This document shows, in pieces, positions 37,977 through 57,590 of a stretch of 59,922 nt of DNA. The notes below the pieces were generated by a model. That model saw only the letters and a program-made list of their open reading frames with translations, was not told the origin of the DNA and ran no database searches. The stretch's first letter is position 1. The number at the start of each line of letters is the position of its first letter. Source of the stretch: Candidatus Calditenuaceae archaeon (GTDB lineage: Archaea > Thermoproteota > Nitrososphaeria_A > Caldarchaeales > Calditenuaceae); the NCBI GenBank assembly GCA_025058225.1, contig JANXEE010000016.1:1-59922 (forward strand), read 5' to 3'. The translations under genes were made by a program, and so were the position numbers.

Positions 37977-38753
37977 CTAAAGCGGTCTCCTCAGCCTCAG
38001 GTGCAGGAGCAGGAAGATCACGAACGCGTGTATCAGTGGCGTGAGCCAGAGGAGTACGGTCTCGGGCCAGCTCAGGCCGACGAGTCCAGCTGCACCCTGC
38101 ATCAGCCGGGCGGTAGGGGTCGTTGGCGATAGGAACGCCAGATATCTGAGCTCAGGCCAGGGTATCCTCTCGAGCGGATAGAAAACCGGAGGCAGGTAGG
38201 AGAGGGCACCCGTGAAGATCGGCGAGTAAACCCACAGGTCCCTGATGTCCCTAGCCAATGTGCTGATGTAGTAACCTATCATCGAGACGATCGCCCAGGT
38301 GGTTGTCAGCGCCCCGAGGAAGACCATCCAACTCCATATCTGATTGACCCCGACGAGCGTCCAGAGGAGCACGCCGAAGACCGCCAGTCCAGGCAGCGCG
38401 TTGATCAGGTTCCCCAGAGCGAGGCCCACGGCGTACGGGATAAGGCCTCCCCGGGTCAGCACGAACATCGAATCGATCTTCAGAATGAGCCTGTTGAATG
38501 CTGCGTCTGACTCCATAGTGATGGAGTTCGCGACCACGATGGACATCATACCACCGATCAGCGCGTACGGAACGATCTCGCTTATGCCGTAGACTGAGAG
38601 GAAGAGCAGGAAGGCCATAGGCGCCAGCATCGGCGACAGCGACCAGAAAGGGTTCTGCTTGAAGGGAATGACCCCGAACAGCATCGTCGACGCGTAGATC
38701 GACTTCGCCAGCGTTATCAGACGATCAGCGAGCTCCCTCCTCAATCTGACCAC
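37977..38753 (-). CDS. ABC-2 type transporter permease
   Basis: Six hydrophobic segments; overlaps the adjacent ATP-binding gene. Confidence 0.82.
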   Translation of the reverse strand: MVRLRRELADRLITLAKSIYASTMLFGVIPFKQNPFWSLSPMLAPMAFLLFLSVYGISEIVPYALIGGMMSIVVANSITMESDAAFNRLILKIDSMFVLTRGGLIPYAVGLALGNLINALPGLAVFGVLLWTLVGVNQIWSWMVFLGALTTTWAIVSMIGYYISTLARDIRDLWVYSPIFTGALSYLPPVFYPLERIPWPELRYLAFLSPTTPTARLMQGAAGLVGLSWPETVLLWLTPLIHAFVIFLLLHLRLRRPL

Positions 38754-39639
38754 CCGCGAGAATTACGAACGCGTCCTCGAGTGAGGGTTTGGAGACGTTC
38801 ACCCTCCAGCTCTTTCTGATCGCGAGGTCCGCGAGCTCCCTAGCCCCCGACTCCATGGTCAGCACCCTGAACCGGTCACCTATCCGCCTGACCATTCCGT
38901 ACACACTCAGCTCGGCGGGATCAGCCGCGCCCTCGATGTCGACCCTGTACTCGTATTCGACCGCCCTCATCACGTCTTCCACTTTCCCGGTGGCCACAAT
39001 CCTGCCGGAGTTTATGATTGAGACTTTGTCAGAGATGGTCTCGGCCTCCTCCATGTTATGGGTCGTCACCAGCACAGCCCGTCCTCCCTCAGAAGCCCTC
39101 CTGATCTGCGACCACATCGTTGTCCTAGAGATTGGGTCCAGGCCGATCGTGGGTTCGTCGAGGAAGACGACGTCGGCCTCGGTAGCCATGGCCATCGCGA
39201 CGTAGACTCTCTGCCTCATCCCGGCGGAAAGGTTGCCGCAGACGACGTTCCTCACGTCCCAGAGCTCCATCGCCTCGAGATACTCCCTCGAACGCCTAGC
39301 AGCCTCCTGTCTCGACATCCCCCTAGCGATGAGGTAGTAGTAGACGTGAGCCCACGGCGTAGAGAGGTTGGAGGGCCTGCCCTCCTGGGGTACCACTGCG
39401 ATCCTCCTCCTTATAGAACCTGCCTCGGTGACCACGTCACGCCCCAACACTTTGACCGTACCCCTGCTCGGCTTGAGGAGGGTGCAGGCTATCCTGACGA
39501 ACGTCGTCTTACCGGCACCGTTCCTTCCCAACAACGCGAAGACCTCACCCTCCTCCACCCTCAGGGTCGCACCCTTCAGGACCCAGTTGACGCCGTCGTA
39601 GGTCTTCCAGACCCCTTCCGACTCGACAGCCACACCCAT
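38725..39639 (-). CDS. ABC transporter ATP-binding protein
   Basis: LLGRNGAGKTTFVRI, NLSAGMRQRVYVAMAMA, VVFLDEPTIGLDP. Confidence 0.95.
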   Translation of the reverse strand: MGVAVESEGVWKTYDGVNWVLKGATLRVEEGEVFALLGRNGAGKTTFVRIACTLLKPSRGTVKVLGRDVVTEAGSIRRRIAVVPQEGRPSNLSTPWAHVYYYLIARGMSRQEAARRSREYLEAMELWDVRNVVCGNLSAGMRQRVYVAMAMATEADVVFLDEPTIGLDPISRTTMWSQIRRASEGGRAVLVTTHNMEEAETISDKVSIINSGRIVATGKVEDVMRAVEYEYRVDIEGAADPAELSVYGMVRRIGDRFRVLTMESGARELADLAIRKSWRVNVSKPSLEDAFVILAGGQIEEGAR

Positions 39640-39680: not shown

Positions 39681-40367
39681 TCAGCGTCTCCTGATCAGAG
39701 CGTGTGCAAGCCTTCCCTCCATAATGAACTCAAGGATCTGGTTTCCGGTGATCCTCGACCAGGAACGGACCTCGCGCTCCGAGCCCTCATCAGCTTCCGC
39801 GACCAGGTGAATGACCTGACCGGAGGGAACCTGTTTGATCGCGTCAGAGAGCACGATCAAGGCCTGGCTGCACTCCACGCCGATGGCCGCCATAACGATG
39901 TCCGGGACCTCCTTGAAGCAGACGATGCCCCTACCCTTGATCTCGCCCAGAAGCGCCTCTGCGACCTCGTTGAATGGCTTGAGCCTCTCCAGGTAATTTC
40001 CACCGAGGGGTTTCAACCTCGCTATCCAGCCGCGACCGTAAGGATCTGACTGCGGGAGATGGGGGGTGTTGCTGAGCTCCGCGTTGACCTCGACGATCTC
40101 GACCTTGAAATTCGCCGTGACGTGTCCGACGAATTTCTTCGCCTCAATGAACGCCAGCGACCTGCCCTCCTCGACGACCGTGCCGACCGGTTTCGGTATG
40201 ATGGTCGTTATCTTCCCCCACTTAAACTGGGTCGTGGGGAGGAGTCCCAACTTGAGGACCCCGTCCTCGTCGACGTACCAGCTCTCGTTGCCCGGGTCGT
40301 AAAGCGCCTTCTTGATGAGCGTGCAACCGTTTACGACCAGCGCCTCCTCCCCCTCAACGACGCTCAT
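39681..40367 (-). CDS. GcvH-like lipoyl-carrier domain fused to TusA/SirA-like sulfur-carrier domain
   Basis: N-terminal half: KLGLLPTTQFKWGKITTIIPKPVGTVVEEGRSLAFIEAKKFVGHVTANFKVEIVEVNAELSNTPHLPQSDPYGRGWIARLKP (H-protein with lipoyl-Lys position). C-terminal half: AAIGVECSQALIVLSDAIKQVPSGQVIHLVAEADEGSEREVRSWSRITGNQILEFIMEGRLAHALIRR (TusA-like with its Cys). Confidence 0.8.
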   Translation of the reverse strand: MSVVEGEEALVVNGCTLIKKALYDPGNESWYVDEDGVLKLGLLPTTQFKWGKITTIIPKPVGTVVEEGRSLAFIEAKKFVGHVTANFKVEIVEVNAELSNTPHLPQSDPYGRGWIARLKPLGGNYLERLKPFNEVAEALLGEIKGRGIVCFKEVPDIVMAAIGVECSQALIVLSDAIKQVPSGQVIHLVAEADEGSEREVRSWSRITGNQILEFIMEGRLAHALIRRR

Positions 40368-57152: not shown

Positions 57153-57590
57153 TCACTCGGTTTCGCCAGCCTCCAGCTCCAGCTCCTCCAGGTACCTCGT
57201 GTACTCGTCGGGTTGCATGAGGTCCTCTAACTCGGTCGGGTCAGAGATCTCGATCCTGCAGAGCCAGCCGTCCTCGTAGGGGAACTCGTTGATCAGCTCC
57301 GGGCTGTCAATCAACTTAGCGTTCACCTCGACCACCTTGCCGGTGATGGGGGCCCTGACCTCGTGGCTTCCGCCGATCGACTCTATCGTGGCGAGGTGCT
57401 GGCCCCTGGTCAGCTTCGTGTTGATGTTGGGAAGCTCGACGTAGAGTATCTCCCTCAGTTTCCTCTGGACGTAATCGGTGACCCCCGTTACCGCGTGTTT
57501 ACCCTTCACCCTCACCCACTCGTGGTTCCTTGAGTACTGCAAGCCTCCCGGTACCTCGTAGGAGCCTGACATGTATCTATCAGCCTGCAA
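57153..57590 (-). CDS. GcvH-family protein lacking the lipoyl lysine
   Basis: YSRNHEWVRVKGKHAVTGVTDYVQRKLREILYVELPNI...ATIESIGGSHEVRAPITGKVVEVNAKLIDSPELINEFPYEDGWLCRI; ESI-G-G replaces the usual ESV-K-A. Confidence 0.9.
   Translation of the reverse strand: MQADRYMSGSYEVPGGLQYSRNHEWVRVKGKHAVTGVTDYVQRKLREILYVELPNINTKLTRGQHLATIESIGGSHEVRAPITGKVVEVNAKLIDSPELINEFPYEDGWLCRIEISDPTELEDLMQPDEYTRYLEELELEAGETE

Follow-up and report, generated by a model that had tools for sequence, protein, structure and literature searches.

The gene described here raises the question of why an archaeon would carry a lipoyl-carrier fold and a TusA-type sulfur-carrier fold in one polypeptide, and of whether lipoate has any part in what that polypeptide does. 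It lies on the reverse strand of a contig from a Candidatus Calditenuaceae archaeon; this whole stretch of 59,922 nucleotides is called the window, and the genome to which it belongs is 73% complete. Table 1 gives the positions of the gene, its parts and its neighbors.

Table 1. Features at the fusion locus, in window coordinates
Feature	Position	Strand	Basis
LbpA-TusA fusion gene, 228 aa	39681..40367	(-)	Intact ORF; 33 conserved copies
GcvH/LbpA-like domain, residues 26-134	39966..40292	(-)	Pfam GCV_H 3.6e-20; Foldseek 1onl TMt 0.88
TusA-like domain, residues 162-226	39690..39884	(-)	Pfam TusA 2.3e-5; Foldseek 3lvj TMt 0.82
Cys15, LbpA-type N-terminal cysteine	40323..40325	(-)	33/33 copies (G354 start extended upstream)
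Lys78, lipoyl-lysine position	40134..40136	(-)	K in 12/33 fusions
Cys150, LbpA-type C-terminal cysteine (GIVC)	39918..39920	(-)	33/33 copies
Cys166, TusA acceptor cysteine (ECS)	39870..39872	(-)	33/33 copies
ABC-transporter ATPase, directly downstream of fusion	38725..39639	(-)	Pfam ABC_tran 1.1e-28; syntenic neighbor
ABC-2-like permease, after the ATPase	37977..38753	(-)	ABC2_membrane 7.3e-5, under cut-off; syntenic neighbor only

Two carrier folds in a single chain

The initial annotation had claimed a covalent two-domain fusion, and Pfam, AlphaFold and Foldseek all agree with it. The frame begins with ATG and contains no internal stop. Across the 33 orthologs, GCV_H (PF01597) is matched in all 33 and TusA (PF01206) in 32 (E≤0.001); in the window protein itself the TusA match scores 24.6 bits, slightly under the curated Pfam threshold of 28.6. 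An AlphaFold model, for which the input alignment consisted of ten natural relatives, is confident along the whole chain (mean pLDDT 93.4, pTM 0.87), and Foldseek matched its two halves to the crystal structures of the T. thermophilus H-protein (1onl) and E. coli TusA (3lvj), which answers the fold check that had been proposed. The one artifact that had been named as a possible refutation, an assembly or frameshift error joining two genes, is ruled out by 33 copies across 32 genomes, several of them single-contig. It is thus confirmed that a lipoyl-carrier fold and a TusA fold are covalently joined in a single chain. Both halves are of known kinds, and it is their combination in one chain that appears to be new; in the consulted parts of the literature that treats TusA along with lipoate-binding protein, GcvH or sHdr, no description of an LbpA-TusA fusion was seen.

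Distribution and descent of the fusion

The 33 copies, the most distant of which is 22% identical to the window protein, belong to six family-level groups of one phylum. This census covered archaeal genomes (the order Caldarchaeales and a 398-genome sample of the phylum). Within the order, families f1 and f4 carry a full-length fusion in 19/20 genomes, and families f2 and f3 in 0/24. The phylum sample adds families f41 (4), f46 (4), f47 (2 genomes, 3 copies) and f57 (3). A collection search with a narrow alignment yielded nine close relatives, the named ones being Candidatus Calditenuaceae and Calditenuis MAGs. In a tree of the fusions, the copies from f1, f4, f41 and f57 each form a well supported group, as would be expected for an old, vertically inherited fusion.

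Archaeal amoA is present in all four f41 genomes and in all four fusion-bearing f46 genomes, and on the basis of amoA alone we call these carriers putative ammonia oxidizers. In seven of these eight genomes (L154, L155, L158, L160, L163-L165) amoA shares a contig with the fusion, at a distance of ~15-23 kb.

Cysteines of LbpA in the N-terminal half

The TusA acceptor cysteine, which the initial annotation had reported as kept, is indeed invariant: C166 is found in 33/33 fusions, and in the model it sits at a helix start, the same place as in TusA. The Cys-Ser reported in place of Cys-Pro is correct for the window protein, and the following residue varies among relatives (S, A, E, N or P). C150 is likewise invariant (33/33), and C15 is present in 32 of the 33 proteins as called; in the last, from G354, it is found in the upstream in-frame sequence.

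These two additional cysteines bear directly on the nature of the N-terminal half. LbpA proteins, some archaeal ones excepted, have two conserved cysteines, one near each terminus, that are lacking in GcvH (Cao et al. 2018, PMC6067878), and C15 and C150 correspond to this pair. The motifs read GCKIPE...WGIQC in the LbpA encoded by the window's genome and GCTLIK...RGIVC in the fusion, and the C15 column holds Tyr or Phe in canonical GcvH. A profile of the fusions scores two-cysteine LbpA at 92-114 bits, whereas canonical GcvH from the window's order reaches ~80 bits at most. The phylogeny that had been suggested against LbpA and GcvH gave a partial answer: in a tree of 75 N-terminal domains, the fusions form a separate group of their own (97/79) outside canonical GcvH (100/100). 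Judged by its sequence, the N-terminal half is LbpA-like rather than GcvH-like, because it has both LbpA cysteines, and the earlier label "GcvH-like" is corrected accordingly. An ordinary GcvH was considered and rejected on the cysteines, the tree and the profile scores. The glycine decarboxylase P-protein (PF02347) had no match in the window's 73% complete genome, nor in the window's genus.

The window encodes a second GcvH-like protein (57153-57590, reverse strand; Pfam GCV_H 3.3e-36), and this one is without the lipoyl lysine (ESIGGSH). Across the four genomes of the genus, none of which shows a P-protein, the corresponding residue is G, G, G and R, as against K in 20/20 other canonical GcvH.

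Repeated loss of the lipoyl lysine

The lipoyl lysine had been described as in register, which is true for K78 of the window protein; its conservation extends to just 12 of the 33 copies. The remaining residues at this position are R (17), N (2), V (1) and I (1), a congeneric species reads EAKR, and the fusion tree, from which this column was excluded, requires at least nine switches between K and non-K. In the same alignment, K is kept in 7/7 two-cysteine LbpA, in 20/20 canonical GcvH from other genera than the window's, and in 10/11 other GcvH-like paralogs. Arginine is not lipoylatable; nonetheless, the residue at position 78 is positively charged (K or R) in 29/33 copies, which means that some constraint still acts on it. 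The LplA/LipB catalytic domain (PF21948) was not found in six genomes of genus g4 that retain the fusion, and all six fusions have Arg at position 78. The alignment and tree show the lipoyl lysine to have been lost repeatedly across the fusion family, unlike the cysteines. No LbpA-type domain with its cysteines kept and its lysine dropped is described in the consulted portions of the same literature.

The six g4 genomes (90-95% complete) also each encode a GcvH (L124-L129), which retains its lipoyl lysine despite the lack of a detectable LplA/LipB catalytic domain or P-protein.

A probable rhodanese partner

A two-domain rhodanese (PF00581, E=8.8e-34 in G005) adjoins the fusion in 24/33 loci and lies within ~5 kb of it in 28/33. 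It is immediately upstream and co-directional in 15 loci (7 of f1, 8 of f4), convergent and adjacent in nine loci of f46, f47 and f57, and ~5 kb from the fusion in all four loci of f41. That the pair is retained although the gene arrangement differs suggests that rhodanese and fusion are functionally linked, and this neighbor, with the LbpA-type cysteines, upholds the earlier suggestion of a role in sulfur trafficking. The genus of the window is an exception, with no rhodanese beside the fusion; the gene lies elsewhere in the genome in G001, in G003 and, on another contig, in the window's own genome, and was not found in G002 (57% complete).

Within the phylum sample, the rhodanese is present in 31/31 fusion genomes and in 101/367 fusion-less genomes (Fisher p=1e-16, uncorrected for kinship). 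Its presence in so many genomes of the latter kind means that the rhodanese is the wider of the two, with the fusion as its lineage-specific partner, and a rhodanese exclusive to the fusion is rejected. Matches to the fusion profile beside the rhodanese in fusion-less genomes were sought, and none was found. Two short ORFs (83-84 aa) do occur directly 3′ of the rhodanese in such genomes: one in f21, an LbpA-bearing family (L183:5496-5747), has no TusA match, and one in f15 (L181:5875-6129) matches TusA weakly (E=0.009).

A separate sHdr locus

The initial annotation had pointed out that lipoate-binding proteins and TusA are separate partners in the sHdr pathway, and had called for a search of the genome for sHdr, lipoate ligase, DsrE and rhodanese genes. 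All were found, off the fusion's contig. The sHdr-type locus lies on contig C13 (L038, 3040-9843) and encodes TusA, DsrE, an ArsR-like regulator, a lipoate-protein ligase, LbpA, a second DsrE, an HdrC-like protein, a CCG-domain (HdrB-like) protein, an HdrA-like protein and a second HdrC-like protein, followed by genes for a Mo-oxidoreductase, an FCSD-like protein and sulfur transport. An sHdrB-like protein is clear in only 2/19 fusion-bearing genomes of the order, the window's and G025, and the other 17 have no sHdrB match; the fusion is thus not a part of sHdr. Membership in the sHdr operon is rejected, as the fusion is present where sHdr is absent and separate carriers are encoded within the sHdr locus itself.

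Proposed function and alternatives

Considered together, these comparisons make it most likely that the fusion passes sulfur between cysteines and not via lipoate. We favor, at a probability of roughly 60%, a self-contained cytoplasmic sulfane-sulfur carrier that works as a rhodanese-fed, lipoate-independent persulfide relay. The rhodanese, whose gene adjoins the fusion in most relatives but sits on a different contig in the window's genome, would load sulfane sulfur onto C166; C15 and C150 would then hold this sulfur or pass it on, in persulfide or thiosulfonate form; and the LbpA-like domain would serve as a docking and carrier domain toward the final acceptor, with lipoylation of K78 optional at most. 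We infer the direction of transfer, the presence of sulfur on each cysteine and the acceptor. The persulfide relay is favored because the three cysteines are invariant in 33 sequences while K78 is kept in 12, because the rhodanese adjoins the fusion in two gene arrangements and accompanies it in every fusion genome of the phylum sample, because C15 and C150 match the LbpA pair and the profile favors two-cysteine LbpA, and because the six g4 genomes keep their Arg78 fusions without PF21948. Counting against it, the rhodanese is not adjacent to the fusion in the window's genus and is present in many genomes that have no fusion, and most copies retain a positively charged residue at position 78.

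The alternative that survives best is that the fusion is a biosynthetic donor, handing rhodanese-derived sulfur to tRNA thiolation or to the formation of Fe-S, molybdopterin or thiamine, and has no part in sulfur catabolism. TusA acts in tRNA thiolation in E. coli, and the fusion occurs in amoA-bearing archaea and in genomes without sHdr, as this idea would have it; however, the genes next to the fusion do not regularly include a biosynthetic partner, and the window's genome carries three TusA genes besides the fusion. We consider this somewhat unlikely; it is not exclusive of the persulfide relay, to which it would supply an acceptor.

It is also worth considering the hand-off proposed initially, in which K78 of the window protein is lipoylated and the TusA-domain cysteine gives up its sulfur to the dihydrolipoyl arm. 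K78 is placed for this, in register and in a beta-turn between strands 70-76 and 80-84 of the model; a lipoate-protein ligase gene exists on contig C13; and dihydrolipoate is accepted as a sulfur acceptor by bovine and one microbial rhodanese, according to work cited in PMC6067878. As a general mechanism the hand-off is not supported, since the lysine is absent from 21/33 orthologs, mostly in favor of Arg and with the congeneric species among them. Even for the window protein it seems improbable, as the only ligase found in this genome belongs to the sHdr locus, where its neighbor is a separate LbpA.

Equally doubtful is a redox module in which sulfur or thiols would be oxidized on the fusion and the electrons passed to quinone-linked complexes. 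Several f4 genomes have the gene order etfB-etfA-fixC-rhodanese-fusion, and in G228 (L162:7825-8918) the fusion lies within a complex I operon, its start overlapping a NuoI-like ferredoxin gene. These contexts hint at redox coupling, but each is confined to a single lineage and is not general; the neighbors in the remaining families are unrelated (GlmS, EF-2, UppS). The order fusion-ATPase-permease is repeated in G001, G002, G003 and G005, and a direct functional tie to the adjacent ABC transporter was rejected, this neighborhood being limited to the window's genus and G005. Finally, the three invariant cysteines, with the mostly conserved H222 (28/33) and H187 (26/33), could bind a metal or Fe-S cluster in place of sulfur cargo, a very unlikely reading given that C166 is at a helix start as in TusA and that C15 and C150 are the LbpA cysteines.

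To return to the persulfide relay, a broader and more tentative view of its origin is that an ancestral fusion of a lipoyl-carrier domain with TusA became a lipoate-free persulfide carrier that uses the cysteine pair of LbpA. The result would be a rhodanese-TusA-LbpA relay in which one chain holds two carriers, in use among ammonia-oxidizing archaea as well. The findings point to a sulfur-trafficking protein, so far undescribed, that is shared by hot-spring Caldarchaeales and the putative ammonia oxidizers. Furthermore, the family separates the extra cysteines of LbpA from the lipoyl lysine, a natural experiment in which the function of the cysteines is directly testable.

Comparison with known carriers

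It is informative to set the fusion beside the three carriers that it resembles. With GcvH (PF01597; 1onl) it shares the overall fold (TMt 0.88), and it differs in its two extra cysteines, in its non-conserved lysine and in forming a clade separate from the GcvH of the same genomes. With TusA/SirA-like carriers (PF01206; 3lvj) it shares the fold and the acceptor cysteine at the helix start, but it has no Cys-Pro motif here, a weak sequence score and a covalently attached LbpA-like domain. With the LbpA of the sHdr pathway, which gives the top scores against the fusion profile, it has in common the H-protein fold and the N- and C-terminal cysteines; yet LbpA has a strictly conserved lipoyl lysine and genes that accompany sHdr, whereas in the fusion the lysine is mostly gone, the link to sHdr is missing and a TusA domain is attached.
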